Shown here piece after piece: positions 7,423-41,989 of a stretch of DNA of 64,000 nt; the first letter of the stretch is position 1; the number at the start of each line of letters is the position of its first letter. Source of the DNA: Natronococcus occultus SP4 (GTDB lineage Archaea; Halobacteriota; Halobacteria; Halobacteriales; Natrialbaceae); the NCBI RefSeq assembly GCF_000328685.1, contig NC_019976.1, positions 186,001-250,000 on the forward strand, in the 5' to 3' direction. The notes beneath the pieces were generated by a model, which had not been told where the DNA came from, did no database searches, and worked only from the letters and a program-made list of their open reading frames with translations. Both the position numbers and the translations under genes were made by a program.

Positions 7423-8964
7423 ATGGCGGCCGACGACTCCCTCGCCTTGCTCTCGCTGCCCGCCGCCGCGGTCGAGCGCGCCTCGCGGCTCGCCGTGCGG
7501 GACGCCCTGCAGTACTTCGCCCCCGACCTCGTGGCGATCCCGGGCGCGCGGACGGCGAGGACGCACGCGACCGTTCGGGACCTCGCGCCGGAGCGTCCCG
7601 TCCTCCACCCCCAGCTCGGCCGGGGCGGCGACCGCGTCCGACACTACCGGTACGCGCCCGCGATCGGCGTTCAGGAGACCGCGGGGGCGCCGCCAGCCGA
7701 GGCGATCGACGTCCTCGCCGTCCAGCACCGCGACGTTCTTCCGGAGCTCCGGGGCCGGCTGGCGGCGGGCGAGCGACCGACGAGCGAGGGGGCCGCGACC
7801 CTTCTCTTTCTCCCGCGACTCGCCGTCGACTGGAACGCGACCGCGCTGTCGACGACGCTACCGAACGCCGCGGAACTCGCGGCGATCGCCGACCTGCTGC
7901 CCGAACCGGTCTCCGTCCTCGCGGGCGGCCAGCCGGCGACGTACCACCACGAGTGGTCGCTGTCCCGCGAGGACGACACCGAGGAGACGGTCCGGCTCCC
8001 GACCGTCGGTCTCGGCGCGACCGACGACGGCGACTCGAAGCTCGCGCGTTACACCTGCACGCAGAACGGAAGCGTCGCCGCGCAGGCGGTCGACGCCGAT
8101 CGGTTCGGGCTCGGGGCGTTACACGGGGTCGGTCCCGCGATCGCCGAGCGACTCCGAGACGCGGGTCCGCGGACGGTCGAGGAGGTCCGCGAGCTCGGGG
8201 TCGACGAGCTGACGGCGCTGCCGGGAATCGGGCGGACGACCGCCGAGCGGATCCGCGATCACGCCGCCGTCATCGACTCCGGGGAGCCGCTCGTCCTGAC
8301 GAACGATGACCCGGTTCGCTCCCGGGACGGCCGAGCGCCGCTCTGTCTCGACATCGAGACCGACGGGCTCTCCCCGACGATCATCTGGCAGCTCGGCGTC
8401 TACGACCCGGAGACGGACGCCTACCGGGCGTTCGTCGAGCACGAGGAGCCGACGAACCCGAAACCGGTGTTGGAGGCGTTCGTAACCTGGCTCCTCGCGA
8501 ACCACGCCGACCGCACCCTGCTGACCTGGAACGGAAACCGCTTCGACTACCGCCACATCGAACGGTTCCTCCGACGGCACCTCCCCGAATACGCCGACGC
8601 CTGGGACGACGTCCGAACCGCAGATCTGTACGCGTGGGCGGTTCGCGACGAGAACGCTCTGTTGCCCGGGCGGACGAACAGGCTCAATGACGTCGCCCGC
8701 GCGCTCGGCTACGACGCCGCGGGGACCGGGCTGAGCGGCGCCCAAACCGCGGCCGCCTACCGGGAGTTCATGCGTACCCCGGATGATCCGGAGCGCGAGC
8801 CGGACTGGGACCGACACGAGGCCTACTGCGAGGACGACTGCCGCGCGCTCTGGCACGTCTTCCGGGCGATCGAGGACGCACCCCGCAAGGACCGGAACGC
8901 GACGGTCGGCGAAACGGGCGAGACGACGGGCCGACAGACGGGACTCACCGACTTCTCCACATGA
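7423..8964 (+). CDS. HhH plus YprB-type RNase H-like exonuclease (MrfB-like)
   Basis: 513 residues. I start at the ATG at 7423, about 30 bases after the TATA-like CTTATCC (7390-7396); the open frame further upstream is not needed. Two helix-hairpin-helix motifs lie at about 232-250 (H-G-V-G-P-A-I-A) and 264-282 (L-P-G-I-G-R-T-T-A). Residues about 305-490 form a YprB/DnaQ-like RNase H fold: Asp310 and Glu312 in L-D-I-E-T-D-G, T-W-N-G-N-R-F-D-Y, and the acidic E-D-D at 470-472. In Bacillus subtilis YprB (MrfB) is an exonuclease working with helicase YprA (MrfA) in mitomycin lesion repair. The gene overlaps the helicase gene by ATGA, so the two are translationally coupled. Confidence 0.82.
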   Translation: MAADDSLALLSLPAAAVERASRLAVRDALQYFAPDLVAIPGARTARTHATVRDLAPERPVLHPQLGRGGDRVRHYRYAPAIGVQETAGAPPAEAIDVLAVQHRDVLPELRGRLAAGERPTSEGAATLLFLPRLAVDWNATALSTTLPNAAELAAIADLLPEPVSVLAGGQPATYHHEWSLSREDDTEETVRLPTVGLGATDDGDSKLARYTCTQNGSVAAQAVDADRFGLGALHGVGPAIAERLRDAGPRTVEEVRELGVDELTALPGIGRTTAERIRDHAAVIDSGEPLVLTNDDPVRSRDGRAPLCLDIETDGLSPTIIWQLGVYDPETDAYRAFVEHEEPTNPKPVLEAFVTWLLANHADRTLLTWNGNRFDYRHIERFLRRHLPEYADAWDDVRTADLYAWAVRDENALLPGRTNRLNDVARALGYDAAGTGLSGAQTAAAYREFMRTPDDPEREPDWDRHEAYCEDDCRALWHVFRAIEDAPRKDRNATVGETGETTGRQTGLTDFST

Positions 8965-11684
8965 CCGACGAGCGCACGACGACCGACGGAAGCGCACGAA
9001 CGGGAGTCTCGGGACGAGAGCTGATCGAGACCTTCCCACGCACAGGCCTGACGCCGGGCTCGGACAGCGTCGAGCGGATCGAGCTCCCGGCAAAACCGGC
9101 CGAAACGGTCTCGGCCGCGGAGGCGTTACGGCCGGCGCTCGCCGAGCCGTACCCCCACGACCTCTTTTCCCACCAGGCCGAGGCGCTCGGGGCGCTCGCG
9201 GACGGCGAGGACGTGACGGTGGCGACGTCGACCGCCAGCGGGAAGACCCACGTCTACGGCCTCCAGATCGCCCGGAACCTGCTCGAGTCGGGCGTCCTCG
9301 AGCCCGACGGCTCGCGGGCCGCGGACCGCAACGACGCCTCGACCGCGCTGTGTCTGTACCCGACCAAGGCCCTGACGAAAGACCAGCGCGATGCCCTCGA
9401 GGGGCTGTACGATCGCCTGGGGCTCGACGTCCGCGTGCGCATCTACGACGGCGACACGACGGGCGATCGCCGCGCCATCCGGGAGACAGCGGACGTGATC
9501 CTCACGAACTTCGCCGGGCTCAACGTCTACCTTGAGCACCACGACAGGTGGAGCCGGTTCTACAGCGCACTCGATCTCGTCGCGATCGACGAGTCCCACA
9601 CCTACACCGGTATCGAGGGGATGCACGCCGCCTGGATCTGCCGGCGGCTGCGCCGGGTCGTCGACTACTGGGGCGGCAACCCACAGTACGTCCTGACGTC
9701 CGCGACGATCGGCAACCCCGGAGAGCACTCGCGGGAGCTGATCGACGCCCCCGTGACGGTGGTCGACGACGACGGCTCGCCGCGCGGTCCGCGAGAGATC
9801 GTCCTCTGGAACCCCCCGCCGCGGGACCGAACCCGAACCCAGGAATCTCCCGCCGAGGACGCGGTCGCCGACGCCGACGAAGCCGAGGACGCCGACGCGG
9901 ACGACGTCGCCGAGCGGGTGCCCGCGAGCGTCGACGCCCCGAAAGTGTTCGACCACCTCACCTCACGAGACGTCCGCACGCTGCTGTTCTGTCCGAGCCG
10001 CAAGCGGACCGAGCTCGCCGTGCAGCGGGCGGACGAGCACCGACGAGCCAACCCGCGGGCGCACGACCGATCGGCCGCAGGCGGACGGGAGCCGTACCAC
10101 GCGGGGCTGGGACGGGACACGCGCCGCGTCCGCGAGCGGCGGTTCAAAACCGGCTCGCTCACGGGGCTCGCGACGACCTCCGCGCTCGAGCTCGGGATCG
10201 ACGTTGGGGGTCTCGACGCGACCGTGCTGGCGGGCTACCCCGGACAGCGACAGGCCTTCTGGCAGCGGGTCGGCCGTGCGGGCCGGGGCGGAAGTCGGAG
10301 CCTCGCCGTGCTGGTGGGCGATCACCGCACCCTCGACCAGTACGTCCTCGAACACCCGGAGTTCCTGCTCGAGACCGACGTCGAGGACGCGGTCGTCGAC
10401 ACCTCGAACGACGCCGTCTTCGCGACCCACGTGCTGGCGGCCGCCGACGAGATCGCGCTCGACGAGGCCGATATCGGACGGTTCGCCGACGAGGAGCGGC
10501 TCCGGGACGCCGTCCGGATGTGGCGCGAAGCCGGCTCCCTCGACGGCGTCCTCGAGGCGGGGGTCCACTACGGGGGGCCGCGACGACCCCAGACCCGCGT
10601 CGACCTCTACGGGACCGACGATTCGACGTATCGCCTGCAGCTGGCACCCGGAGTCGACAACGAGACGTGGGGGCTCCCCGAGGAGCTCGATCTGGAGCCG
10701 ATCGACCGGAGCCGGGCCTACCGCGACTACCACGAGGGCGCCGTCAGACTCCACGGCGGCCAGCAGTTCGAGGTCGTCGCCGTGGACGAAGACCGACCCC
10801 GGCCCGTGATCGAGCTCGAACCGGTCGACCGCGAGTACTACACCCGAACCCGCAGTCAGGTCACCGTCCTCGACGCCGAATCGGAGCGCTCCCGGGAGGT
10901 AAACGGGTTCGAGCTTCACTTCGGTCGCGGGACCGTGCTCGTCCACTACGACACCTACGACGAGGTGGCTATCGGGAACGGCGAGACGAAGCGGGGCGGG
11001 GTTCCGACGGAAAGCCCCCCGATCCGGATGGACACCCAGCTGTGCTGGCTCGAGGTTCCCGCCGACGTCGAGCGCGCGCTCGTCCGGAAGTACCGCGACT
11101 ACGGCGTCGAGACCGGCGTCGGCCCCGACGAGGACGTCGGACCCCACCTGGGGTACGTCGCGGGGCTCCACGCGGCCGAACACGCCACGATCCAGGTGGC
11201 CCCGCTCGAGCTGCGCGTCGACAAACACGACCTCGGCGGGCTCTCGACGCTCGTGATGGACTCCCACTACGCCCGCCCCGACCACGACGAGCTCGCCGAC
11301 AGGGTCAGGGGCTCGCTCGACGCCGCGACGGCCGCGATCGAACGTCGCGCCGACGAACTGGAGGGGCCCGCCTCGGGCTGGTTCGTCTACGACGGCGTCG
11401 ACGGCGGGCTGGGCTTCGCGCGCGCGATCTACGACGAGTTCGAGGCGCTGGCCGAGCGCGCCCGCGACCAGCTCCGGGACTGTCGCTGTGGGCGGCCGAA
11501 CGGCTGTCCCGCCTGCACGTTCGACGAGAACTGCGGCAACGACAACGCCCCGCTGTTGCGGGCCTCGGCCGTCGACGTCCTCGACCAGCTCCTCGGCGAC
11601 GCCGACCGCGAGGACGTAGCCGATCACCGTCTGGACGACCGCGACGACGATAGCGACCGTCGTCCCGCCCTCTTTTACTCCTGA
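8961..11684 (+). CDS. superfamily 2 DEAD/DEAH-type helicase with DUF1998 (MrfA/YprA-like)
   Basis: 907 residues. Motif I S-T-A-S-G-K-T near residue 90, motif II D-E-S-H at 210, motif III L-T-S-A-T near 247, motif VI Q-R-V-G-R-A-G-R-G near 435. The C-terminal ~250 residues are the DUF1998 (MZB) region with four zinc-ligand candidates: C-R-C at 841-843, C-P-A-C at 849-852 and C-G near 858. This is the layout of MrfA/YprA and Hrq1-like helicases, which translocate 3'-5' on DNA and are tied to crosslink or adduct repair. An acidic insertion of about 60 residues (approx. 290-335) is rich in Glu/Asp/Ala. The ATGA overlap with the upstream exonuclease gene supports a joint complex. Confidence 0.9.
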   Translation: MTDERTTTDGSARTGVSGRELIETFPRTGLTPGSDSVERIELPAKPAETVSAAEALRPALAEPYPHDLFSHQAEALGALADGEDVTVATSTASGKTHVYGLQIARNLLESGVLEPDGSRAADRNDASTALCLYPTKALTKDQRDALEGLYDRLGLDVRVRIYDGDTTGDRRAIRETADVILTNFAGLNVYLEHHDRWSRFYSALDLVAIDESHTYTGIEGMHAAWICRRLRRVVDYWGGNPQYVLTSATIGNPGEHSRELIDAPVTVVDDDGSPRGPREIVLWNPPPRDRTRTQESPAEDAVADADEAEDADADDVAERVPASVDAPKVFDHLTSRDVRTLLFCPSRKRTELAVQRADEHRRANPRAHDRSAAGGREPYHAGLGRDTRRVRERRFKTGSLTGLATTSALELGIDVGGLDATVLAGYPGQRQAFWQRVGRAGRGGSRSLAVLVGDHRTLDQYVLEHPEFLLETDVEDAVVDTSNDAVFATHVLAAADEIALDEADIGRFADEERLRDAVRMWREAGSLDGVLEAGVHYGGPRRPQTRVDLYGTDDSTYRLQLAPGVDNETWGLPEELDLEPIDRSRAYRDYHEGAVRLHGGQQFEVVAVDEDRPRPVIELEPVDREYYTRTRSQVTVLDAESERSREVNGFELHFGRGTVLVHYDTYDEVAIGNGETKRGGVPTESPPIRMDTQLCWLEVPADVERALVRKYRDYGVETGVGPDEDVGPHLGYVAGLHAAEHATIQVAPLELRVDKHDLGGLSTLVMDSHYARPDHDELADRVRGSLDAATAAIERRADELEGPASGWFVYDGVDGGLGFARAIYDEFEALAERARDQLRDCRCGRPNGCPACTFDENCGNDNAPLLRASAVDVLDQLLGDADREDVADHRLDDRDDDSDRRPALFYS

Positions 11685-24019: not shown

Positions 24020-25210
24020 ATGGTAAGCCACGACTCTCAGCGGAGTCGATCAGAGGCATCAACGAACAGCTTCGGCGTCCCTGGCGTGGGGATGACGACG
24101 TTTACCGGAACCGACGACCGCTCGCTCGCCGAACTGCTGGAGATCGCCGCGGAGCGAGCACTCGCCGACGCCGACCTCGAGGCGTCCACGGTCGACTCGG
24201 TTCACGTTGGAAACATGGCCGCTGAAGCGTTCAACGAGACGTCGGGACTGGCGAACGCGCTAACCGCGAGCCTCGGTCTCAGCCAAGCATCGGCACGACG
24301 AATCGAAAACACGAGCGCGACGGGGGCGAGTGCAGTCCTCGACGCCGTCGACGCCGTCCGTGCCGGCCGCTCGACGGTCGCACTCGCGGTTGGTGGCGAG
24401 AAGATGTCCGCGGCCGAGACGACGGTGGCAACGGAGATTATCAGTCGAATTACCCACGCTCAGGAGTACGATCAGGGGATCACGCTTCCGTCGTTCGCGG
24501 GGCTCGCGGCCGCACAGTACCTCGATGCCCACGGGGCAACGCGGCGTGATCTCGCCCAGGTCGCAGTAAAGAACCACGCGAACGCCCGGCGGAACCGGTA
24601 CGCACAGTTCGATTCCGACGTGACCGTCACGGACGTACTGGAGTCTCCGAAGGTCGCGACGCCGCTTCGACTGTACGACTGCTGTCCCACGTCCGACGGT
24701 GCCGCTGCCGTCATCGTTACGGCCGCAAACGCCGAGGTGACCGTCGAAGCCTGCGAGAGCGCCATTGGCGTCCACGCCGTTGCGGACCGGCGAGATCCGC
24801 TCCGGATCGAGAGCGTCGCTGCCGCCGGACGCGCGGCCTACGAGGCCGCGGATACGGGTCCCGATGCGATCGACGTCGCCTGCATTCACGACGCGTTCAC
24901 GATCCTCGAGTGGCTCGAGATGGAGGAGCTCGGGTTCGCCGAGCGGGGCGAGGCCTGGCGGCTGACACGGAACGGGCGAACGGAGATCGAGGGCGACGGC
25001 AATCTCGCGGTCAACCCCGGCGGCGGCCTGAAGGCTCGCGGCCATCCTCTCGGTGCGACCGGGATCTCGCAGCTCGTCGAACTCGTCTGGCAGCTTCGAG
25101 GGGACGTTCCTGCCGATCGCGCGGTCGGTTCGCCACGGTACGGGCTCGCGATCAACGTCGCCGGCTTCGGGAACAACAGCGTCTGTACGATCGTGGAGGC
25201 GACCGGATGA
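24020..25210 (+). CDS. thiolase-fold protein lacking the nucleophilic Cys
   Basis: 396 residues, SCP2/archaeal thiolase-like length and order. At the nucleophile position the sequence reads R-I-E-N-T-S-A-T-G (Ser99), where thiolases have E-A-A-C-A-S-G. Other landmarks are kept: G-G-E-K-M, I-H-D-A-F-T-I-L-E, and G-G-G-L-K-A-R-G-H-P-L-G-A-T-G. Proteins with this loss and a DUF35 partner include the steroid side-chain aldolases (Ltp2 with the DUF35 domain of ChsH2), which cleave beta-hydroxyacyl-CoA by retro-aldol reaction instead of thiolysis. The next gene is a DUF35 protein joined by an ATGA overlap. An acyl-CoA aldolase or other non-thiolase activity is therefore my preferred reading; substrate unknown. 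Confidence 0.8.
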   Translation: MVSHDSQRSRSEASTNSFGVPGVGMTTFTGTDDRSLAELLEIAAERALADADLEASTVDSVHVGNMAAEAFNETSGLANALTASLGLSQASARRIENTSATGASAVLDAVDAVRAGRSTVALAVGGEKMSAAETTVATEIISRITHAQEYDQGITLPSFAGLAAAQYLDAHGATRRDLAQVAVKNHANARRNRYAQFDSDVTVTDVLESPKVATPLRLYDCCPTSDGAAAVIVTAANAEVTVEACESAIGVHAVADRRDPLRIESVAAAGRAAYEAADTGPDAIDVACIHDAFTILEWLEMEELGFAERGEAWRLTRNGRTEIEGDGNLAVNPGGGLKARGHPLGATGISQLVELVWQLRGDVPADRAVGSPRYGLAINVAGFGNNSVCTIVEATG

Positions 25211-25530
25211 ATACCGTTCTCGAATGTCCGGACTGCGGGCGACGAACCTTCTACGAGAAGCGCCGCTGTCTCGACTGTGGCGCCGACGACCTTCGAAGCC
25301 GCGAAGCGGGCGTCGGTACGCTCCGAGCGGTGACCGCAGTACACGTCACACCCGACGGCGTGAGCGAGCCGAATCGCCTCGGCCTCGCGTCGTTCGACGG
25401 CGACGCGAGTATCATCGCACAGCTCGAGGACGGACTGGAGCCCGGCGACCGGGTCACGCTCGAACCGTCGGTCTCCTGGGAGGACGTCGAGTCGCCGCGG
25501 CTCGTCCAAGCCAACCAAAGCCGCAGCTGA
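25207..25530 (+). CDS. DUF35 Zn-ribbon/OB-fold acyl-CoA-associated protein
   Basis: 107 residues starting at the ATGA overlap with the thiolase-like gene. N-terminal rubredoxin-like zinc ribbon: C-P-D-C at 7-10 and C-L-D-C at 21-24. The rest is a short OB fold (G-V-G-T-L-R-A-V-T-A-V-H, L-E-P-G-D-R-V-T-L-E). In archaea the DUF35 protein bridges thiolase and HMG-CoA synthase and channels acyl-CoA; in actinobacteria DUF35 domains bind Cys-less thiolase-fold aldolases. Translational coupling argues for a 1:1 complex with the upstream protein. Confidence 0.85.
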   Translation: MNTVLECPDCGRRTFYEKRRCLDCGADDLRSREAGVGTLRAVTAVHVTPDGVSEPNRLGLASFDGDASIIAQLEDGLEPGDRVTLEPSVSWEDVESPRLVQANQSRS

Positions 25531-25552: not shown

Positions 25553-26320
25553 TCAAATCGAGTGTTCGATGTGGAGTTCGAGTTCGTTGACGGCACTGAG
25601 CACCCGCTCCGGAAGCTCCTCCGTGAGCTGCTCGCCCTTGACGCGGTGAGCGGGCCCGGAGACGCTCAGCGCGCCGATCACCTCGTCGGCCGAGTTCGTT
25701 ACCGCCGCACCGACCGCGTGAACTCCCTCGGTCGTCTCTTGACGGTTGAAAGCGTAGCCCCGCTCGCGGATCCGTTCACACTCCTCCTCGAGTTCCGCAC
25801 GCGTCGTGATGGTGTTCTCGCTTACGCCCTGAAGACCATGGGTGGCAACGATCTCGTCAACCCGCTCGGCGGGCATGTTCGCGAGGATCGACTTCCCGGC
25901 GGCGCTCGTGTGAAGCGGCCCGCGCCGACCGATGTGTGCACCCGTCTGCACCGCGCTCTGTCCGACCTCCGTGTAAAGGTAGACGCGTTCGCCGTCCTCT
26001 TCGACGAGGAACTGCGCGCGCTCCCCGGTTTCCGCGGCCAGAACGTCGACTTTCTCCTTGATCATCGGATACGCTGTCGTCGTTCGCTGTGCGTGACCGC
26101 CAACGGTGAGAAACTGGAGTCCAATACGATAGCTGCCGTCGGACTGGACGACGTAGTTGTGCTCGCGGAGGGTAACGAGATGCCGGTGGACGGTGCTCGA
26201 CGATAGTCCCAGATACTCGGAAATCTCGTCGATCGTTCCCCCGCGTAGTTCACGAATCGCGTCGATGATCGCCAACGACGTTTCGGTCGTCCGTGCCCCG
26301 GTTTTGGGTTTTTTTGCCAT
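25553..26320 (-). CDS. IclR family transcriptional regulator (1)
   Basis: 255 residues from ATG at 26320, exactly one TATA distance (27 bases) from TTTATAA at 26344-26350, so the transcript is probably leaderless. N-terminal winged helix with I-D-E-I-S-E-Y-L-G-L-S-S-S-T-V-H-R-H-L; C-terminal IclR effector domain with R-A-Q-F-L-V-E-E, G-P-L-H-T-S-A-A-G-K-S-I-L-A and G-V-H-A-V-G-A-A-V. IclR proteins bind small organic acids and usually regulate adjacent catabolic genes. Candidate targets are the convergent thiolase-like/DUF35 pair and the MFS/CoA-transferase genes on the other side. Confidence 0.92.
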   Translation of the reverse strand: MAKKPKTGARTTETSLAIIDAIRELRGGTIDEISEYLGLSSSTVHRHLVTLREHNYVVQSDGSYRIGLQFLTVGGHAQRTTTAYPMIKEKVDVLAAETGERAQFLVEEDGERVYLYTEVGQSAVQTGAHIGRRGPLHTSAAGKSILANMPAERVDEIVATHGLQGVSENTITTRAELEEECERIRERGYAFNRQETTEGVHAVGAAVTNSADEVIGALSVSGPAHRVKGEQLTEELPERVLSAVNELELHIEHSI

Positions 26321-26343
26321 GGGTGGTAGTGTGTCTCGAGGAA

Positions 26344-26350
26344 TTATAAA
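26344..26350 (-). promoter_or_regulatory. TATA box of IclR(1)
   Basis: TTTATAA on the minus strand, centred 27 bases before the ATG at 26320. Confidence 0.65.
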
Positions 26351-26473
26351 TGATGGTGTTCCCTGCAGCGACGACCGCCGTCGACGCTCTAGCCTCCGAT
26401 CCGAGGATACGGGACCGGTTGCAGTCGGTGAATCCCTCTCTCCGTCGCCATTGTCCTGTTTTATCATTGTGTT

Positions 26474-26488
26474 GTGACACAGTGTCAC
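26474..26488. promoter_or_regulatory. 15-bp palindrome GTGACA-cag-TGTCAC
   Basis: Perfect 6-bp inverted repeat with a 3-base centre in the divergent IclR(1)/MFS intergenic region, 154 bases upstream of the IclR start. Possible operator; I saw no second copy elsewhere in the window. Confidence 0.4.
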
Positions 26489-26825: not shown

Positions 26826-28058
26826 ATGGATGAGAACGATCGATCGATTACGGGATTTACGATGCTCGCACACGGAATCTTTCACACCTACGAGCTGAGC
26901 ATCCCGATCTTCATCGTCATCTGGCTGGACGTCTTCGACGTCTCGGCGTTCGTCCTCGGACTCGTCGTCAGCGTCGGTTACGGGCTCATCGGCGTCGGTG
27001 CGATTCCGAGCGGTCTGCTCTCGGATACGTACGGCTCGCGTCGACTGATCGTCGCGTCGGTCGTCGGAATGGGCAGCGGGTTCTTTATGCTCGCGCTCGC
27101 GCCGAACGTTTACGTGCTGATGGTAGCGATCATCATCTGGGGCGTCGCCGCGAGCGTCTACCACCCCGCTGGGCTGTCGCTGATCAGCCGCGGCGCGAAG
27201 AACCGCGGAACGGTGTTCGCCTACCACGGCGTCGGCGGTAACATCGGAACCGCGTTCGGCCCGCTGCTGACCGCATCGTTGCTGCTCTTTCTTGACTGGC
27301 GGGTCGTCGTCGTCGCCCTTACGGTACCGGCCGTCGCCGTCGTCGCGTTCGGTTCGCTGATCGAGTTCAACGAGGACGCTGCAACCGCGGCCGACGGGGG
27401 CGACGACTCGAGCGACGAGCGGTCGTCGATGGATCTCAAGTCGATCGTCGACGACTCGCGGCTGCTTCTCACCACGGGCTTTCTGCTTACGTTTGCCGCG
27501 ATCATGATCTACGGAATCTACTACCGCGGACTGCTGACGTTCCTGCCCGACATGATCGGCGGTCTCCCCCAGTTCGAGACCTACGAGATCTTCGGACAGG
27601 AAGCCGAGCCGGCCCAGTACATCTACACGGGGATCCTGATGGTCGGGATCCTCGGCCAGTACGCCGGCGGACGGATCACCGACCACGTACGGACGGAGTA
27701 CGCGTTCCTTTCGTCGCTGACCGCCCTCGGCGTCCTGGCGTTTGTCTTCATCCCGTCGGTCGGCTGGGGGCTCGCGCCGTTCCTGCTGGTCTGTGCCGCC
27801 ATCGGCTTTTTCCTCTACGCAACTGCGCCGATCTACCAGGTTGTGATCGCGGAGTACGCTGCTGCCGACGTTCACGGCCTCTCCTACGGCTACGCCTACC
27901 TCGGCATGTTCGGCTTCGGCGCGGCGGGTGCCGCGCTCGCCGGCTCGTTGCTCACCTACGCGAACGAGACGGTGCTGCTCGGAACGCTTGGTGCGCTCGC
28001 GCTGGTCGGCGCCGGGATCGTCCTCGTTCTGCTTGCGCTGTACAGTGGGAATGAGTAA
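26826..28058 (+). CDS. MFS transporter
   Basis: 410 residues with twelve predicted membrane helices in two halves; the cytoplasmic loop (about 180-205) is acidic with D-D-S-S-D-E-R. The motif A-like loop between helices 2 and 3 reads G-L-L-S-D-T-Y-G-S-R-R, the usual G-x-x-x-D-x-x-G-R-R. Substrate not predictable from sequence, but the position between IclR(1) and a CoA-transferase gene suggests an organic acid whose CoA ester is made by the neighbouring enzymes. Confidence 0.88.
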   Translation: MDENDRSITGFTMLAHGIFHTYELSIPIFIVIWLDVFDVSAFVLGLVVSVGYGLIGVGAIPSGLLSDTYGSRRLIVASVVGMGSGFFMLALAPNVYVLMVAIIIWGVAASVYHPAGLSLISRGAKNRGTVFAYHGVGGNIGTAFGPLLTASLLLFLDWRVVVVALTVPAVAVVAFGSLIEFNEDAATAADGGDDSSDERSSMDLKSIVDDSRLLLTTGFLLTFAAIMIYGIYYRGLLTFLPDMIGGLPQFETYEIFGQEAEPAQYIYTGILMVGILGQYAGGRITDHVRTEYAFLSSLTALGVLAFVFIPSVGWGLAPFLLVCAAIGFFLYATAPIYQVVIAEYAAADVHGLSYGYAYLGMFGFGAAGAALAGSLLTYANETVLLGTLGALALVGAGIVLVLLALYSGNE

Positions 28059-28100: not shown

Positions 28101-29352
28101 ATGGTAGCCAGAGCTAGCCACGGAATTCTCGACGATATTACCGTCGTCGATCTCACGACGTTCGTGACCGGCGGGTTCGCGACCCTGATGCTCGCGAACC
28201 AGGGCGCGGAAGTGATCAAGGTCGAACGGCCGAAAGTCGGCGACGACAGTCGCCACTCCGGTCCGCCGTTCGTCGACGTCGACGAGTACGAAGGAACGGG
28301 GCGAGGCGGCCTCCGAGCACGGCGAGTCGCCGTACTTCTGGACGGTCAACTACGACAAGCGAAGCGTCGAACTCGACCTCAAGTCCGAGGAGGGGTACGA
28401 AATCTGCCGGAAGCTGATCGACGAGGCCGACGTCGTCGTCGAGAACTTCAGACCCGGAACGGCCGAACGCCTCGGGCTCGGCTACGAGGACCTGGCCGAG
28501 GACCACCCTGAACTGGTCTACTGTTCGATCTCCGCGTTCGGCGACTCCGGCCCCTGGAGCGACCGTCCCGGCTACGACCTGCTGATCCAGGGAATGAGCG
28601 GCATGATGAGCGTCACCGGTCCCGAGGACGGCGACCCCGTCAAGGTCGGCCTCCCACAGACGGACCTGATCACTGCGATGTGGTCCGCGTTCGGGATCGT
28701 CAACGCGCTCTACCGGCGCGAGCGGACCGGCGAGGGCGAGCGCGTCGAACTCGGGATGCTCGACGCGTCGCTGCCCTGGCTGACAAAACAGGCCGCGAAG
28801 GCGTTCGTCGGCGAGGAGCCGGGTCGGATGGGAACGAAAGATCCCGTTCTCGCGCCTTACCAGAGCTACCCGACCGCGGACGGCTACCTGAACGTCGCCT
28901 GCGGCAACCAGAAGCTATGGGAACAGCTCTGCGAAGAGATCGGTCGCGAGGAGCTCGCCACTGATCCCCGGTTCGAATCTAACGCCGATCGGGTCGAGAA
29001 CATGGACGTCCTCGAGGAGGAGCTCGCCGAGACGTTCACCGAGCGGTCGACCGACGAGTGGGTCGAGCGCCTCGCCGAGGACGCGGGTCTCCCGGTGGGG
29101 CCGGTCTACAGCGTCGACGAGGCCCTGAACAACGAACAGGTCACTGCACGGGGCGCGGTCGAGACGCGTTCCCACCCCGCGGCCGGAGAGATACCGATCC
29201 TCGAGCATCCGTTGAACTTCTCGGAGTCCGAAAGCGGGTTTGACGAGGCGCCGCCCATGCTGGGCGAGGACACCGAGGCGGTCGTCGAGGCGCTGGGCTA
29301 CTCGGAGCAGGAGATCGAGGAGCTCCGCGAGAAGGGCGTACTGTCCGGATAG
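28101..29352 (+). pseudogene. CaiB/BaiF CoA-transferase interrupted by a frameshift
   Basis: The family III CoA-transferase pattern begins at 28101 (D-L-T-T-F-V-T-G-G-F-A, then A-E-V-I-K-V-E-R-P, residues 1-65) and continues in the next frame from about 28300: A-A-S-E-H-G-E-S-P-Y-F-W-T-V-N-Y-D-K-R-S-V, V-E-N-F-R-P-G-T, S-G-M-M-S-V-T-G-P-E-D-G and the catalytic-Asp block G-M-L-D-A-S-L. The switch falls in GGAACGGGGCGAG; removing one G from GGGG (28298-28301) restores one frame through the junction. So this is either a recent single-base mutation or a sequencing error in a homopolymer; the rest is intact. The enzyme would move CoA between carboxylic acids. A paralogue is at 31248-32444. Confidence 0.85.
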
Positions 29353-31247: not shown

Positions 31248-32444
31248 TCAGTCGCCGAACGCGCCGCCCTCGCTCCACTCCTCGAGGGTCGTCTGATCGT
31301 CCGCGAGCTCGTCGAACACGTCCTCGGTGTGCTCGCCCAGCCGCGGCGCCGGCGAGCGCACGACGGCGTCGTGATCGGGGTAGTTGATCGGGTGACCCGG
31401 TAGTAGACACTCCCCCCAGTCGGGGTCCTCGTGGGAAACGACGAGGTTGCGGGCGTCGGTCTGCTCGTCCGCGACGACGTCGGCCACATCGTTGATCGGG
31501 CCACAGGGGAAGTTCGCAGCCGTCAGCTGCTCGAGCCAGTGCTCGGTGGACTCCTCCTCGAGGGCCGCCTGGATCAGCTCCGTCACGCGCTCGGCGTTGT
31601 CCTGGCGGTCGTCGTTGGTCGGGTACTCCCGCAGCTCCTCTGCGCCGACGAGATCGACGAAGTCGTCCCAGCGCTCGTCGCTGGGGACGCCGGTGACGAT
31701 CGCGCCGTCGGCGGTCTCGAAGCGCTGGTAGGGAACGAGCGTCTGGTGGGTCACGCCCTGGGGTCCGGGAACGGAGCCGTCCATCGAGTACTCCGTGAGG
31801 TACTCGTTGAGCAGGGTGACGATCGAGTCGAACAGGCCGACGTCGAACTTGCCGACGAACGCGTCGGCGTCCTCGGCGCGGTCGCGCTCGGAGAGCCGCG
31901 CGAGGACGCCCATCGCGGCGAACATCCCCGTGGTGAGATCGCCGATCGCCTGGCCGACCTTGACGGGCTCGCCGTCCTCGGGGCCGGTGACGCTCATGAT
32001 TCCGCCCTCGGCCTGGAGGATGAGATCGAGCCCCGGCTGGGCTCGCTTGGGACCGGTCTCGCCGTACCCCTTGATGCTGGCGTAGACGATCTCGGGATTG
32101 TGCTCGCTGATCTCGTCGTAACCGATCCCGAGCTTGTCGGTGACGCCGTAGCCGAAGTTCTCGACGAACACGTCGGCGCTGGCGATCAGCTCGCGGGCGG
32201 CCTCCGTGCCCGCGTCGGTCTTGAGATCGAGGGTGACCGAGCGCTTGTTGCGGTTGTTCGCCATGAAATAACCCGACTTGCCCTCGGGGCCGATCCCCTG
32301 GGATCGGGCCGGGTCGCCGACGCCCGGCCGCTCGATCTTCACGACGTCGGCGCCCATATCGGCGAGCAACGCGCCACAGAACGGTCCGGCACGGTGACCG
32401 GTCATCTCGACTACCGAGACGTCGGCGAGCGGTCCCCCGGTCAT
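31248..32444 (-). CDS. CaiB/BaiF family III CoA-transferase
   Basis: 398 residues from ATG at 32444, which overlaps the stop of the upstream crotonase-like gene (ATGA). Family blocks: V-V-E-M-T-G-H-R-A-G-P-F-C-G near the N-terminus, A-D-V-V-K-I-E-R-P-G-V-G-D, N-K-R-S-V-T-L-D-L-K, S-V-T-G-P-E-D-G-E-P-V-K-V-G and the likely catalytic Asp in V-G-L-F-D-S-I. These enzymes transfer CoA between two acids through an aspartyl-CoA mixed anhydride. Substrates in the family include oxalate/formate, succinate/itaconate, mesaconate and carnitine; none is indicated by sequence alone. Full-length, unlike the paralogue at 28101. Confidence 0.9.
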   Translation of the reverse strand: MTGGPLADVSVVEMTGHRAGPFCGALLADMGADVVKIERPGVGDPARSQGIGPEGKSGYFMANNRNKRSVTLDLKTDAGTEAARELIASADVFVENFGYGVTDKLGIGYDEISEHNPEIVYASIKGYGETGPKRAQPGLDLILQAEGGIMSVTGPEDGEPVKVGQAIGDLTTGMFAAMGVLARLSERDRAEDADAFVGKFDVGLFDSIVTLLNEYLTEYSMDGSVPGPQGVTHQTLVPYQRFETADGAIVTGVPSDERWDDFVDLVGAEELREYPTNDDRQDNAERVTELIQAALEEESTEHWLEQLTAANFPCGPINDVADVVADEQTDARNLVVSHEDPDWGECLLPGHPINYPDHDAVVRSPAPRLGEHTEDVFDELADDQTTLEEWSEGGAFGD

Positions 32445-33226
32445 TGTCCCTCGTTGAACTCGTCGACCAGCTCGCGGCGCTCGTCGGTGGCGAACTGCTC
32501 CCACCAGATCTCGGCCTCCTGTTCCCGCGCCGTCTCGAGACTGTCGGCGTGTACCGCGCCGTTGATCGCGCGCTTGGAGTTTTTCACCGCCTCGCGGCCG
32601 GTGTCCTGGATCCCGTCGACGATCCCGTCGACGGTCTCGTCTAGCTCCTCGCGCGGGACGGCGTGGTTGACCAGTCCGATCCGCTCGGCCTCGTCGGCGT
32701 CGATCATCCCTGCGGTGTAGACGAGCTCTTTGGCCTTGGCCTCGCCGACCAGTTCGACCGCCCGCCAGGTCGAGCCGCCGGTCGGGATCTGGCCGATGTT
32801 CGCCGTCGGCACGCCGAACTTCGCGTCGTTGACGGCGATCCGAAGATCGCAGTACATCGCGAAGATCAGACCGCCGCCGACGCAGTAGCCGTTGATCTTC
32901 GCGATCACCGGCGCGTGACAGTCGTACGGCTTCTGGTACATCTCGTAGAACAGCTCCTGGCGGTCCTTCTGGAGCGGGTCGTGGTCCTCGGCCGTCCCGG
33001 CGTACTGGGAGATGTCGGCGCCCGCGGAGAAGGCGTCCTCGCCCTCGCCGGTAATCACCACGGCGTCGATGTCGCGGTTCAGCTGGATCTCGTCGAACGC
33101 GCGCTTGAGATCGAGCATGACCTCGTTGTTGAGCGCGTTGTAGACCTCGGGACGGTGGAACTCGATCGTCGCGATCCCGTCGTCGACGTCGACGGTAATG
33201 CTTTCATAAGCACTGTAGCTAACCAT
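32441..33226 (-). CDS. crotonase-fold protein without the two catalytic glutamates
   Basis: 261 residues from ATG at 33226, about 30 bases after an AT-rich box at 33253-33264. The oxyanion-hole loop A-G-A-D-I (68-72) and G-G-G (117-119) are intact. At the positions of the hydratase glutamates (rat Glu144 and Glu164) this protein has Ile121 (G-G-G-L-I-F-A-M-Y-C-D) and Thr141 (F-G-V-P-T-A-N-I-G). It should therefore bind acyl-CoA but is not expected to hydrate it by the standard mechanism; crotonase relatives with replaced glutamates act as isomerases, decarboxylases, hydrolases or dehalogenases. Translational coupling to the CoA-transferase suggests consecutive steps on one acid. Confidence 0.82.
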   Translation of the reverse strand: MVSYSAYESITVDVDDGIATIEFHRPEVYNALNNEVMLDLKRAFDEIQLNRDIDAVVITGEGEDAFSAGADISQYAGTAEDHDPLQKDRQELFYEMYQKPYDCHAPVIAKINGYCVGGGLIFAMYCDLRIAVNDAKFGVPTANIGQIPTGGSTWRAVELVGEAKAKELVYTAGMIDADEAERIGLVNHAVPREELDETVDGIVDGIQDTGREAVKNSKRAINGAVHADSLETAREQEAEIWWEQFATDERRELVDEFNEGQ

Positions 33227-33978: not shown

Positions 33979-35049
33979 ATGTCCGACAAAACAACGCAAC
34001 AAAGTTTGACGGTGGAAGCAACGACCAGGCGACGGTTCCTCGGAATCGCTGGTGCGGGAGCTGCCGTATCGATGGCCGGCTGTCTCCAGGACGACGATCC
34101 GGACGCGGGGGACGACGAGGACTGGGAGCCTTCGGAATCGATGCGATACATCGTGCCGTACGACGAAGGTGGCGGTACCGACGTCTACGCGCGCGGTATC
34201 ATCGAATCACTCACCGATGCGATGGACGAGGATATCCAGGTGGATAACGTTCCCGGCGGTGGTGGCCTGAACGGATTCGGAGAGCTGTACGGCTCCGAAC
34301 CGGACGGACACACGATCGCGGGAAGCGCGACACCACTGGAAGTGCCACCCCAGATGCTTGACGACCCCGGCTTCGATCAGCGCGATCTCGAGGGGATCGC
34401 AAACATCGGTCGCTCGACGTGGTGTCTCATCGTTAACGAGGAGTACGAAGGTGAGGTCGAGACGTTTGACGACGTTCGCGAGATGCACAACTCCGGGGAG
34501 TGGGACTCGATCGGCATCCAGGAGCCCGGGAGCCCCCAGGACATCATGACCCTGCTCGCGAAGCACGGTGAGGGGTACGCCGAAGAGTACGACTGGCAGT
34601 GGGAAGAACGGGTCCAGTACACCGGAACCGGTCCAATCGCCGAGGCGGTGACCGCTGGCGAGGTTCCCTGCGGAATCGGAACCGACGCTGGGACGGAACC
34701 GGACGTCTCCGCGGGCGGCGTCTACCCGGTCTGTACGTTCTGGAGCGAAGGAACCGAAGTGTATCCCGATATCCCGTCCGTCACGGACGAAGGATACCCG
34801 GAGATGGACTTCATCGCCGGTGTCACCCGGGGGCTGTACGCGCCTCCAGACACGCCCGACGGCGTCATCCAGGAGCTGACCGAGCGCGTCGAAGAAGCAA
34901 CTCAGGACGAACGCTACGAGGAGTGGTCCGAAGAAACCGGGAACCCGATCTTCTATGAGGGCCCAGAGGACGCGAACGCGGCGATCGACGACGCGTTCGA
35001 GGAGATGGAGGAGCTGGAGATCGTCGATCTGATCGAAGAGCACTCGTAA
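33979..35049 (+). CDS. tctC: tripartite tricarboxylate transporter substrate-binding lipoprotein TctC
   Basis: 356 residues. Tat signal T-R-R-R-F-L-G-I-A-G-A-G-A-A and lipobox M-A-G-C (Cys36). The mature protein has the TctC/Bug fold: Y-I-V-P-Y-D-E-G-G-G-T-D-V-Y-A-R at strand 1 and helix 1, N-V-P-G-G-G-G-L-N-G with the Gly loop that holds the carboxylate, G-T-G-P-I-A-E-A-V-T-A-G-E-V, and G-V-T-R-G-L-Y-A-P-P-D-T-P. It captures a di- or tricarboxylate outside the membrane and hands it to TctA/TctB. First gene of a tctC-tctB-tctA operon (22 bases to tctB). Confidence 0.9.
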   Translation: MSDKTTQQSLTVEATTRRRFLGIAGAGAAVSMAGCLQDDDPDAGDDEDWEPSESMRYIVPYDEGGGTDVYARGIIESLTDAMDEDIQVDNVPGGGGLNGFGELYGSEPDGHTIAGSATPLEVPPQMLDDPGFDQRDLEGIANIGRSTWCLIVNEEYEGEVETFDDVREMHNSGEWDSIGIQEPGSPQDIMTLLAKHGEGYAEEYDWQWEERVQYTGTGPIAEAVTAGEVPCGIGTDAGTEPDVSAGGVYPVCTFWSEGTEVYPDIPSVTDEGYPEMDFIAGVTRGLYAPPDTPDGVIQELTERVEEATQDERYEEWSEETGNPIFYEGPEDANAAIDDAFEEMEELEIVDLIEEHS

Positions 35050-35071
35050 CCCTCTGCCGTTCAGTATTATT

Positions 35072-35713
35072 ATGAGTACCACAGAATCAACTGAGAGGAA
35101 AGTAACGCCGGAGCAGATCATGCTCGTTACGTTCCTCGTCGTGAGCGCGGTGTTTATCATCGAGCCGGTGATCGAAAACTATCCGGACGACGCCCGTGTG
35201 TTTCCACAGTTGACCGCGTCGGCCGTCTTTATCGGCTCGCTGTTGCTGTTACTGCAAAACTACCTTCCGGACCCGATCCAGACGTTCGTCGCCGAGAGCG
35301 TCAGTATCACGAGTTCCGACGAGTCGGAAGTGATCGACAAGCCCGACCAAGAGGAACGAATTGAGGAGGACGAACCGGAAGAGACGGAGGACAAGAAGGA
35401 TACGCTCGGTGCGAAGTACGGGTACGAGATAAACGAGACAGTGTTTATGGTCTCGACGGCACTACTGTACTTCATCGCGGGGTGGGCAGCCGGCTTCCTC
35501 TTCATTACGCCGCTGTACATCCTCGGGTACACCCTCTGGTTTCGGGTCAATCCGGTCATCAGCTTCGGACTGGCCGTGGCAGGGACCGTAATTATCTACC
35601 TGTTCATGACGTACCTCGTACTACCGTTCGACCAGGGACATCTCTTCGACTTTAGCCCGCTACTCCCGATGCTGTTCGACGGCACACCGACGCTGTTGGG
35701 AGGGGGTTCGTAG
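35072..35713 (+). CDS. tctB: TctB small membrane subunit
   Basis: 213 residues with four hydrophobic helices (about 15-33, 47-63, 130-150, 160-205) and an acidic cytoplasmic loop at about 90-115 (E-E-D-E-P-E-E-T-E-D-K-K). The length, position and helix layout fit TctB, the small integral subunit of tripartite tricarboxylate transporters. Sequence conservation in TctB is low, so the assignment rests largely on the operon. Its stop codon is immediately followed by the tctA start. Confidence 0.85.
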   Translation: MSTTESTERKVTPEQIMLVTFLVVSAVFIIEPVIENYPDDARVFPQLTASAVFIGSLLLLLQNYLPDPIQTFVAESVSITSSDESEVIDKPDQEERIEEDEPEETEDKKDTLGAKYGYEINETVFMVSTALLYFIAGWAAGFLFITPLYILGYTLWFRVNPVISFGLAVAGTVIIYLFMTYLVLPFDQGHLFDFSPLLPMLFDGTPTLLGGGS

Positions 35714-37207
35714 ATGGCGGTCGATGCCTTCCTCGATGGGTTATCGATCGCGTTGACAGCCGAGATGCTCATCTGGCTGACTCTTGGGTTGCTTCTCGGG
35801 ATCGTTCTCGGTGCCCTCCCAGGTATCGGCTCGCCGGTTGGGATGGCGATCGTGTTGCCGCTGACGCTGCCGCTCGATGCGACGGCAGCGATCATCCTGC
35901 TGGTCGCGATCTACAGCGGCGCGATGTTCGGCGGTTCGATCGCCGCGATCCTGATCAATGCGCCAGGGACCGAATCGGCCGCGGCGACGACGCTCGACGG
36001 GTACCCGATGTCACAGAACGGCCTGGCGAAAAACGCCCTCGCTATCGCGACGACCGCCTCGGCACTGAACGGCTTTCTCGCCGCGCTCGCGCTGATCCTC
36101 CTCTCACCGATACTGATCGAGGTCGTGCTGGCGTTCGGTTCGCCGGAGTACTTCCTGCTGGCGATCCTCGGGATCTCCCTGATCACCATCGTGACTCAGG
36201 GGTCGATCGTCAAAGGATTGGTCGCCGGCGCACTCGGATTCATGATCTCGACGATCGGGACCGCGATCCTCAGCCCGCGCCCGCGATACACGTTCGGGCA
36301 GTTCGGCCTCTACGAGGGGATCGATTTCGTCGCGGCGCTGATCGGGATGTTCGCGTTCGCCGAAATGATGAAACTCGCCGCACGCAAGCAGATCTCCGAG
36401 GGCAACGTTGAACTCTCCGGCAGCGTCCGCGATGGGATCATGACGGTCTTCAAGTATCCGGTCACGACGCTCAAATCCGGACTGATCGGAATGGGGATCG
36501 GAATGGTCCCCGGCTCCGGAGCGACCACCTCGACGTTCGTCGCCTACGCTGAAGAGGCACGCTCCTCGACCAAGGACGGTAACTTCGGGGAGGGCGATCC
36601 CCGCGGCGTCATCGCGCCGGAGGCCGCGAACAATCCGACCGTCAGCGGCTCGCTCATTCCGACGCTGTCGTTCGGGATTCCGGGCAGCGGATCGACCGCA
36701 GTTCTGCTCGGCGGGATCCTCATGCACGGGCTGCAGCCAGGGCCCGTCCTCTTCGGCGAACAGCTACAGATCACGTACGCGCTGTTTATCTCGCTGTTCC
36801 TCGGTAACGTCCTCATCCTCGTCATCGGGCTAACGGTAATCCCCTACGCGAGCAAGATCACGGAACTCGATACGAACGTGATTATTCCGATGGTCGTCGT
36901 CCTCTCGTTCGCCGGCGCGTACACGCTCAACCAGAACTGGTGGGACGTCGGCGCGGTCATCGTGCTCGGGGTTCTGGGGTTCTACATGGTCCGGAACAAC
37001 TACTCGATCATCGCGTTCGTGCTCGGGATCGTCCTCGGGCCGATCGCCGAGGAGAACTTCTTCCGGTCGCTACAGATCTCGGGCGGCGACTACACGATCT
37101 TCATCGATCCAGTCAACCAGCCGCTGTCGTTCTTGCTATCGATCGCGATCCTGCTGATCCTGTTCGGTCCGTTCCTGAAAGGGCGAATCGAGCGGCTGGT
37201 CGGCTGA
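35714..37207 (+). CDS. tctA: TctA large membrane subunit
   Basis: 497 residues, about twelve membrane helices. Characteristic TctA blocks: L-G-A-L-P-G-I-G near the N-terminus, Y-S-G-A-M-F-G-G-S-I-A-A-I-L-I-N-A-P-G-T near 75, V-P-G-S-G-A-T-T-S-T-F-V-A-Y and G-V-I-A-P-E-A-A-N-N near 270-300, and P-T-L-S-F-G-I-P-G-S-G-S-T-A. It is the ion-coupled channel part of the transporter. With no gap after tctB it must be co-expressed. Substrate candidates consistent with the neighbourhood are tartrate, malate or citrate; not decided by sequence. Confidence 0.95.
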   Translation: MAVDAFLDGLSIALTAEMLIWLTLGLLLGIVLGALPGIGSPVGMAIVLPLTLPLDATAAIILLVAIYSGAMFGGSIAAILINAPGTESAAATTLDGYPMSQNGLAKNALAIATTASALNGFLAALALILLSPILIEVVLAFGSPEYFLLAILGISLITIVTQGSIVKGLVAGALGFMISTIGTAILSPRPRYTFGQFGLYEGIDFVAALIGMFAFAEMMKLAARKQISEGNVELSGSVRDGIMTVFKYPVTTLKSGLIGMGIGMVPGSGATTSTFVAYAEEARSSTKDGNFGEGDPRGVIAPEAANNPTVSGSLIPTLSFGIPGSGSTAVLLGGILMHGLQPGPVLFGEQLQITYALFISLFLGNVLILVIGLTVIPYASKITELDTNVIIPMVVVLSFAGAYTLNQNWWDVGAVIVLGVLGFYMVRNNYSIIAFVLGIVLGPIAEENFFRSLQISGGDYTIFIDPVNQPLSFLLSIAILLILFGPFLKGRIERLVG

Positions 37208-37245
37208 TCCCTCTTCGTTTCGGTCGAACTACCGTTGCCGAAACG

Positions 37246-37252
37246 CTTATTT
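37246..37252 (+). promoter_or_regulatory. TATA box of cupin gene
   Basis: CTTATTT, about 26 bases before the ATG at 37275; leaderless transcript expected. Confidence 0.5.
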
Positions 37253-37274
37253 GTCGTCGCGAGACCGGTAGCGT

Positions 37275-37691
37275 ATGAACGGCGGCTGGACCCACACCTC
37301 CCTCGAGGACGTCGCGACGAACCCGGACAAACCAGGCGACCGCTGGGAGACCTCGCCGGCCCTCGGCGTCGAGGCGTTCAACTTCAACGTGGCCGTCCTC
37401 GATCCGGATGAGCGCCTCTCGCAGAACCACTTTCACTACCACGAGAACCAGAAGGAGCTGTTCTACGTTGTTTCGGGTTCCTGTCGTGCAAGAACGGTCG
37501 ACGAGACTGTGACGCTCGAAACGGACGAACTCATCGCGTTCGATGAGGGAGAAGGAGGTGCACACGTGCTCTACAACCCATTCGAGAAGCCGTGCAAACT
37601 CGTCGCCGTCGGCTGGCCGCAGGACGGACGATACCCGGTCCACCAGCTCGAGCGGACCGAGACAGCGGTTGACGACCACGCAGACGAGTAA
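37275..37691 (+). CDS. single-domain cupin protein
   Basis: 138 residues. Cupin motif 1 is N-H-F-H-Y-H-E-N-Q-K-E-L-F-Y-V-V-S-G with the metal ligands H-x-H-x5-E, and motif 2 contains H-V-L-Y-N-P. One conserved double-stranded beta helix, so probably a small metal-binding isomerase, a sugar/acid-modifying enzyme or a sensor. It sits between the tct operon and a 2-hydroxyacid dehydrogenase gene with its own promoter. Role unknown. Confidence 0.8.
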   Translation: MNGGWTHTSLEDVATNPDKPGDRWETSPALGVEAFNFNVAVLDPDERLSQNHFHYHENQKELFYVVSGSCRARTVDETVTLETDELIAFDEGEGGAHVLYNPFEKPCKLVAVGWPQDGRYPVHQLERTETAVDDHADE

Positions 37692-37740
37692 CACGAGCAC
37701 CGTTCGAACGGCAGCGTCGAGATCGCGTTCGATCACCGCG

Positions 37741-37746
37741 TTTAAG
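37741..37746 (+). promoter_or_regulatory. TATA box of small membrane protein gene
   Basis: TTTAAG, centred 28 bases before the ATG at 37771, which supports that this very short frame is expressed. Confidence 0.5.
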
Positions 37747-37770
37747 CCTTGAGCTGCCGTATCGCGATCC

Positions 37771-37935
37771 ATGCCACGGCTGCAACGAGGACTCGTGCTG
37801 GGCGGGATCTTGCTCAACGTGTCGGCGTTCGTCTACGCCCTCTATATCCGGTCGCTGCTGTACGCGATCGTGTTTCTGATCGTTACCGCGTACCTCATCG
37901 TCGTCTACCAGGTCAACGACGGCTACAGGGAGTAG
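37771..37935 (+). CDS. 54-residue two-helix membrane protein
   Basis: ATG at 37771 to TAG at 37933. M-P-R-L-Q-R-G, then two hydrophobic helices (L-V-L-G-G-I-L-L-N-V-S-A-F-V-Y-A-L and L-L-Y-A-I-V-F-L-I-V-T-A-Y-L-I-V-V) separated by Y-I-R-S, with the tail Y-Q-V-N-D-G-Y-R-E. A TATA box at the right distance and the non-random hydrophobic composition make it a credible gene. No family recognised. It ends 286 bases before the FAD/Fe-S dehydrogenase gene. Confidence 0.65.
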   Translation: MPRLQRGLVLGGILLNVSAFVYALYIRSLLYAIVFLIVTAYLIVVYQVNDGYRE

Positions 37936-38221
37936 GAGCCGCAATCGGTGACGGGGACCGGGTGGCACGTGGCACAACAGTTATGTGGGACCGGTCGATT
38001 AATAGTATCACGCACAAGATATGCAAGCGATTAGCAAACGGTCGGCGACCGCTTTGCCCCCTACTACCGATCGGGTCGTGGCTCGACGACCGTCCTCGAT
38101 CGGAGCCGGACCTCGCCGGGCGACCGCTACCGGTAGGGCCGACCGGACGACGGCCCCGGCAGCTCTCTGAGCGGGTGGCAGTTTCGTTTGTAACCGGAGC
38201 GACCCTCGACGAACACCAATA

Positions 38222-41188: not shown

Positions 41189-41194
41189 ACGACC

Positions 41195-41956
41195 CTACAC
41201 TTTGTACTTGTTCAGTTCGATGACGTTGGCGGTTCGACAAAGCTGGTCGACGAAGTCGTTTTCCTCCCAGTCGTCGTCGATCCGGGCCGTCGGCGCCGAG
41301 ATGCTGATCGCGCCGATAACCTCGGACTCGAACCGGATCGGGGCAGCGATACAGCGCAGCCCCTCGAGCCGTTCCTCGTCGTCGACAGCGAACCCGCGCT
41401 CCCGGGTACGTTCGAGTTCTTCGTCGAGTTCGTCACGGGACGTGATCGTCTTCGGCGTTACGGGCGGCAGGCCGTGGCGGTCGACGATTTCGTCGACGCG
41501 CTCCTCGGGGAGATGCGAGAGGATCGCCTTGCCGAACGCCGAGCTGTGCATGGGGTGGCGACAGCCGACATATGTGTCGAGATCGACGGCCCGCTCGCCC
41601 TTCGACCGACAGAGATAGACTCCTTCCCCGTTCTCTTCCACGACGAAATGAACCAGTTCGCCGGACTCCTCGGCCAGAGCCTCGACCTGCGGTTCGGCGA
41701 CCTTGTAGACGTCCATCTCACTGCGGAGCTGACCGCCGATATCAAGAAAGCGCAGACTCAGCTCGTAGGTGTTCCCGTTTTTGACGACGAACCCGTGTTC
41801 CTCGAGCGTGCTGAGATGGTTGTGGATCGCGCTTTTACCCATGCTTAGCTCGTCGGCCAGCGTCGTGATTCGCGCACCCCCACGGCGGTTTAGCTCCTCG
41901 ATGAGCATCAGCGACTTTTCGGTCGTCCGGACGGGGTGTTTGGCTCGGTTTTCCAT
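41195..41956 (-). CDS. IclR family transcriptional regulator (2)
   Basis: 253 residues; ATG at 41956 lies 27 bases after the TATA-like CTTTATTG (minus strand, 41979-41986), so probably leaderless. HTH with I-T-T-L-A-D-E-L-S-M-G-K-S-A-I-H-N-H-L-S; effector domain with V-H-F-V-V-E-E-N-G-E-G-V-Y-L, P-M-H-S-S-A-F-G-K-A-I-L and G-L-R-C-I-A-A-P-I. A copy of the GTTCT-N7-AGAAC motif (41990-42006) abuts the TATA box on its upstream side, so autoregulation is likely. In bacteria IclR itself controls the glyoxylate shunt; malate synthase is the next gene upstream here. Expected targets: malate synthase and perhaps the 2-hydroxyacid dehydrogenase. Confidence 0.93.
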   Translation of the reverse strand: MENRAKHPVRTTEKSLMLIEELNRRGGARITTLADELSMGKSAIHNHLSTLEEHGFVVKNGNTYELSLRFLDIGGQLRSEMDVYKVAEPQVEALAEESGELVHFVVEENGEGVYLCRSKGERAVDLDTYVGCRHPMHSSAFGKAILSHLPEERVDEIVDRHGLPPVTPKTITSRDELDEELERTRERGFAVDDEERLEGLRCIAAPIRFESEVIGAISISAPTARIDDDWEENDFVDQLCRTANVIELNKYKV

Positions 41957-41978
41957 ACGCGAAACGAGTATCCCAGTC

Positions 41979-41986
41979 CAATAAAG
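41979..41986 (-). promoter_or_regulatory. TATA box of IclR(2)
   Basis: CTTTATTG read on the minus strand, about 27 bases from the ATG at 41956. Confidence 0.6.
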
Positions 41987-41989
41987 GTT

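Follow-up and report, generated by a model that had tools for sequence, protein, structure and literature searches.

A thiolase-like subunit and its DUF35 partner

Within the window (by which we mean the whole 64,000-nucleotide stretch of Natronococcus occultus SP4 DNA that was analyzed), a gene encoding a thiolase-superfamily protein is followed by a small DUF35 gene and by genes for a regulator, a transporter, CoA-transferases and a ThDP-dependent enzyme (Table 1). The product of the first gene matches the Pfam families Thiolase_N (1.8e-37) and Thiolase_C_1 (6.3e-35). Its nucleophile region reads R93-R-I-E-N-T-S99-A-T-G, and alignment to solved thiolases places Ser99 in the column that holds the nucleophilic Cys in 7yvy, 6esq and 6hsj, and a Ser in 4yzo. 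An earlier note on this DNA had claimed that the protein lacks the nucleophilic Cys and carries Ser99 instead, and this alignment bears the claim out. The same note had called for an alignment with true archaeal thiolases, and there too Ser99, and no cysteine, stands at the nucleophile position. The HDAF and HPLGATG motifs are intact, as had been noted, the first being His290-Asp-Ala-Phe and the second lying within a GHPLGATG stretch that carries His342. Two features of canonical SCP2-type thiolases are missing, namely the nucleophilic Cys (Ser99 instead) and the second Cys of HDCF (Ala292 instead). Note that the Pyrococcus thiolase 7YVY also carries HDAF, and the presence of Ala292 is therefore not in itself evidence against thiolase chemistry.

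Table 1. Features of the thiolase/DUF35 locus, with positions numbered from the first letter of the window.
Feature	Position	Strand	Remarks
Thiolase-superfamily catalytic (alpha) subunit, 396 aa	24020..25210	+	Ser99-His290-His342, no nucleophilic Cys
Ser99 codon (agc), E-N-T-S-A-T-G	24314..24316	+	thiolase nucleophile position
Cys288 codon (tgc)	24881..24883	+	invariant in the query clade (53/53)
HDAF motif (His290)	24887..24898	+	thiolase-type His, versus Tyr in Ltp2/Sal
His342 codon, GHPLGATG motif	25043..25045	+	invariant in the query clade
DUF35 small subunit (zinc ribbon + OB fold), 107 aa	25207..25530	+	ATGA overlap with thiolase gene
IclR-family regulator	25553..26488	-	same place in Natronococcus/Natrialba loci
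MFS transporter	26826..28058	+	conserved neighbor
Class III (CaiB-type) CoA-transferase, frameshifted	28101..29352	+	one-base insertion near 28304
ThDP-dependent enzyme, NCBIfam PRK06154	29547..31157	+	855 bits (cut-off 607); conserved neighbor
Second class III CoA-transferase, intact	31248..32504	-	opposite strand to the thiolase gene

The DUF35 protein contains a zinc ribbon of the form C-x2-C-x10-C-x2-C, and its matches to the Pfam families zf-ChsH2 and OB_ChsH2_C are weak, lying slightly under the gathering cut-offs. Its ATG overlaps the TGA of the thiolase gene as ATGA, just as the earlier note had described; this four-base overlap recurs in 30 of the 36 loci where the start could be placed, and a DUF35 gene directly follows the thiolase gene in all 55 loci examined. 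Among the sequences of the clade to which the N. occultus thiolase belongs (the query clade), Ser99 is kept in 53 of 53 that were aligned, His290 and His342 are invariant, and HDAF is present in every member. Both genes are under purifying selection, with dN/dS values of 0.12-0.21 for the thiolase gene and 0.20-0.30 for the DUF35 gene. The conservation of Ser99 (53/53), the dN/dS values (0.12-0.30) and the presence of the DUF35 gene in 55/55 loci argue that the combination of Ser99 with a DUF35 partner is not a product of chance. A second residue also sets the query clade apart: Cys288 is found in 53/53 of its sequences, compared to Glu in all 51 others compared, whether of the Cys, Ser or Pro type. 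In the AlphaFold model Cys288 lies two residues ahead of His290 in the same predicted strand (286-289).

Placement among the serine-type archaeal thiolases

The nearest functionally studied homologue, BktB-alpha, is found in Haloferax mediterranei. In reviews that relate the work of Hou et al. (2013), BktB and PhaA are described as "haloarchaeal-type" beta-ketothiolases (PMC7137286, PMC9049629, PMC6631277, PMC11205408) whose alpha subunit has a catalytic Ser-His-His in place of Cys-His-Cys (PMC7137286), whose OB-fold beta subunit is indispensable (PMC7137286, PMC6631277), and whose double knockout abolishes PHA, which constitutes genetic evidence (PMC7137286, PMC6631277). We took BktB-alpha and BktB-beta from the H. 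mediterranei plasmid record, in which the alpha gene lies at 4866-6017; from the plasmid, the gene pair and the position, this gene would be HFX_6004 and its partner HFX_6003. The N. occultus thiolase is 44% identical to BktB-alpha, with the Ser, HDxF and GHPLGA all aligned, and its DUF35 subunit is 30% identical to BktB-beta.

All Ser-type rows (58 of 58), BktB-alpha and ST0096 of Sulfolobus tokodaii among them, fell into one clade of the maximum-likelihood tree, with support of 100/99 (PhaA was not in the tree). The query clade itself has support of 100/100 and is sister to a group made up of BktB, Nitrososphaerota and ST0096 sequences. Moreover, the Ser-type clade survived removal of all active-site stretches and long branches, and topologies that joined the query clade to the Cys thiolases, or to the Asgard Pro-type sequences, were rejected (p-AU about 0.007).

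The N. occultus pair shares with BktB (HFX_6004/6003) and PhaA (HFX_1023/1022) a Ser at the nucleophile position, the HDxF motif, the GHP His and a DUF35 OB-fold partner encoded by the next gene, and it lies in the BktB clade. It differs from BktB in having HDAF rather than HDMF, Cys288 rather than Glu, and Asn386 rather than Cys, and in forming a clade of its own; it is linked to class III CoA-transferase and catabolic genes, whereas BktB and PhaA are linked to known PHA synthesis. ST0096 (PDB 4YZO), which is the best PDB sequence match to the query (5e-65), has a Ser-type active site, NTSGSG, but carries HDMA where the query has HDAF; we found no function reported for it in the literature that we located. 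Judged by sequence, then, the pair belongs to the SCP2/archaeal thiolase superfamily as a two-subunit protein of the Ser type, within the clade of BktB and PhaA. The combination of a Cys-less thiolase with a DUF35 partner is thus already known in haloarchaea from these two enzymes, and the query group is a distinct, uncharacterized and CoA-transferase-linked subfamily of the known serine-type archaeal clade.

The AlphaFold model of the thiolase subunit, computed as a single chain (mean pLDDT 91), is nearest to the archaeal acetoacetyl-CoA thiolase (Z 61.8, 1.4-1.5 A) and to SCP2 thiolases. The nearest folds are 6ESQ, the acetoacetyl-CoA thiolase of the archaeal HMGCS/DUF35 complex, and 7YVY. 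The HDAF motif is common to 7YVY and the query, and a DUF35 partner is present in the 6ESQ complex as in the query; however, 6ESQ and 7YVY retain the nucleophilic Cys that the query lacks. The ORFs scanned around the query included none for an HMG-CoA synthase.

Distribution and gene neighborhood

The thiolase/DUF35 pair is kept in about 50 haloarchaeal loci, with thiolase orthologues of 55-86% identity in 28 of 125 family genomes (by match strength) and in many more genera across the haloarchaea. Paralogues are also encoded in the N. occultus genome, two of them BktB-like and of the Ser type (about 45%) and two of the Cys type.

The earlier note had placed the pair in an acid degradation route together with the adjacent CoA-transferases. 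This link holds across the family, where a class III CoA-transferase gene lies near the thiolase gene in 49 of 55 loci and directly upstream on the same strand in 33 of them. In the window, the nearest downstream CoA-transferase gene is frameshifted, and the gene that is intact runs in the opposite direction. (In relatives the frameshifted gene is intact and encodes about 430 aa, and the window's copy is otherwise 89% identical to one intact relative's gene; the frameshift could mark a pseudogene or a sequencing error.)

Three contexts recur. One, found in Natronococcus and Natrialba and including the window, comprises the IclR regulator, the MFS transporter, the CoA-transferase and the ThDP enzyme. 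Another comprises TctABC or TAXI/TRAP transporters, a cupin, a quinone-oxidoreductase-like gene and the CoA-transferase. The third comprises an NCS2 permease, MoeA and the CoA-transferase, with genes for a dihydropyrimidinase, a carbamoylase, a class III aminotransferase, an aldehyde:ferredoxin oxidoreductase (AOR), a xanthine-dehydrogenase-type enzyme and urease in part of the loci. In Halorubrum lacusprofundi, a BktB-type thiolase and its beta subunit occupy the slot of the query pair in a similar MFS/CoA-transferase/QOR/TRAP/cupin cassette on pHLAC01, a swap that suggests equivalent roles for the two kinds of pair.

The PRK06154 ThDP enzyme is linked to a CoA-transferase in about ten haloarchaeal loci. 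An oxalate route for this gene (formyl-CoA transferase and oxalyl-CoA decarboxylase) was entertained and rejected, as oxalyl-CoA decarboxylase is absent from its best 25 NCBIfam matches. Farther along the window, positions 33979-46089 hold genes for a TctC/TctB/TctA transporter, a cupin, a second IclR regulator, a tartrate-dehydrogenase-like protein and a 988-aa FAD/Fe-S dehydrogenase resembling D-2-hydroxyglutarate/glycolate dehydrogenases, which together probably form a cluster for hydroxy-dicarboxylate use. In Halostagnicola larsenii, positions 1-48000 of plasmid NZ_CP007056.1 hold a large nucleobase catabolism cluster.

Candidate reactions of the pair

The reading that we favor, with a probability of about 0.5, is that the pair is a DUF35-dependent Ser-type thiolase performing Claisen-type chemistry on a CoA ester made by a CoA-transferase. 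The large subunit would bind a short acyl-CoA, made by the class III CoA-transferase with a short oxo acid or dicarboxylic acid as its starting material; His290 and His342 would form the oxyanion hole for a thioester enolate; and Ser99, at the nucleophile elbow, may act either as the acyl acceptor in place of Cys or as a second oxyanion site. The DUF35 subunit would be needed for assembly or activity, and a C-C bond would be cleaved or made by Claisen-type chemistry. Sequence, motifs, clade, fold and gene linkage are the observations on which this reading builds, and from them we infer the residue roles, the need for DUF35 and the reaction. Counting against it, thiolase chemistry is poorly served by serine as the nucleophile. 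Note that in the sister Asgard clade the nucleophile position is occupied by Pro, and a nucleophile may therefore not be needed.

The earlier note had taken the absence of the Cys, together with the DUF35 partner, as a sign of an Ltp2-type acyl-CoA aldolase that performs retro-aldol cleavage of a beta-hydroxyacyl-CoA. The steroid aldolases Ltp2-ChsH2 and Sal-Shy (6OK1, 9MYR) do resemble the query pair in having a thiolase fold, no nucleophilic Cys and a DUF35 partner, and the model matches both Ltp2 (Z 47.8) and Sal (Z 47.5). Thiolases, however, are the better match in both fold and sequence, and BktB-alpha is the nearest studied homologue. In Ltp2 and Sal the Tyr of YDHF/YDCY serves as the base and Tyr344 (Ltp2) or Cys304 (Sal) as the acid (PMC12329534). 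In the query, this catalytic Tyr (YDxF) is replaced by the His of HDAF, and the position of Cys304 is Ala292. (The Ltp2 and Sal motifs were taken from PMC12329534 because no Ltp2 was among the matches to NCBIfam NF005892 in the query's own, linked and control genomes or among the plasmid matches in Rhodococcus and Comamonas.) The gene context also differs, as no steroid gene and no MaoC-type hydratase (ChsH1/Shy) gene was found among the window ORFs scanned with Pfam, which cover about 24-46 kb. We consider the aldolase reading unlikely. More doubtful still is the idea that Cys288 has taken over the role of the missing Cys, whether as nucleophile or as acid/base; its restriction to the query clade (all 53, versus Glu in the 51 others) and its position in the modeled strand speak for such a relocated thiol, but BktB-alpha works with Glu at this position.

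The main rival to the thiolase reading, and a serious one, is that the pair decarboxylates malonyl-CoA (or alkylmalonyl-CoA) without a cysteine, or acts as a decarboxylative condensing enzyme, which we regard as possible though on balance improbable. According to this rival, a CoA-transferase would convert malonate to malonyl-CoA and the two-His oxyanion hole would steady the enolate left after CO2 loss, making an acyl-enzyme unnecessary. In its favor, H. larsenii and its relatives have an NCS2 permease-MoeA-CoA-transferase-thiolase-DUF35 operon together with genes for dihydropyrimidinase, carbamoylase, class III aminotransferase and AOR. This context would yield beta-alanine, malonate semialdehyde and malonate, and malonate semialdehyde could be processed via malonyl-CoA by the combined action of AOR, the CoA-transferase and the Cys-less thiolase. 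For Haloferax volcanii, MmsA has been proposed as the enzyme that handles the malonate semialdehyde arising by this route (PMC6801745); on the H. larsenii plasmid, AOR, MoeA, the CoA-transferase and the Ser-type thiolase/DUF35 pair may take the place of that enzyme in the final part of uracil catabolism. Genes for AOR are enriched in genomes with a query-type thiolase (9/14 versus 19/111, p 0.0004, uncorrected for kinship) without being confined to them, and the window's own cluster is without uracil genes. A Nitrososphaerota operon combines genes for a Ser-type thiolase, DUF35, an acyl-CoA carboxyltransferase and biotin carboxylase (two loci, 5992-10749 and 1344-5991), and the Pro-type genes of the Asgard lineages Thorarchaeota and Lokiarchaeota adjoin genes for a carboxyltransferase, OadA/PYC_OADA and a biotin carrier; no adjacent DUF35 gene turned up in these loci. 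However, carboxylase genes also adjoin a DUF35 thiolase of the Cys type encoded on a Rhodococcus plasmid, and the carboxylase link is therefore suggestive rather than specific.

The SCP2-thiolase-like protein of Trypanosoma brucei, TbSLP (5AB4-5AB7), which like the query has a thiolase fold but lacks the Cys residues of thiolases, slowly decarboxylates malonyl-CoA (PMC12329534), and this we count in favor of a decarboxylase; it differs from the query in its YDCF motif, its lack of DUF35 and its low identity (22%). The malonyl-CoA decarboxylase family PF05292 had no match in any of the 125 family genomes; as the control genomes gave none either, its absence is not established. Against a decarboxylase, BktB and PhaA, which are in the same Ser clade, support PHA synthesis. 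The uracil-catabolism and carboxylase contexts fit malonyl-CoA chemistry at least as well as they fit the thiolase reading. We speculate, and regard it as about as probable as the decarboxylase reading itself, that malonyl-CoA-type substrates are handled without an acyl-cysteine throughout the Cys-less archaeal branch, by the Ser-type enzymes of haloarchaea and Nitrososphaerota as well as the Pro-type ones of Asgard archaea, the query clade being a CoA-transferase-coupled malonyl-CoA decarboxylase that finishes haloarchaeal uracil or malonate breakdown.

These findings caution that an archaeal Cys-less thiolase with a DUF35 partner is not to be taken as an aldolase; the serine-type archaeal clade, which has genetic support as beta-ketothiolase, accounts for the pattern. 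They also define a widespread uncharacterized subfamily, unusual in its invariant Cys288 and regularly accompanied by a CoA-transferase, and raise the question of how thiolase chemistry might proceed with Ser, or even Pro, at the nucleophile site.
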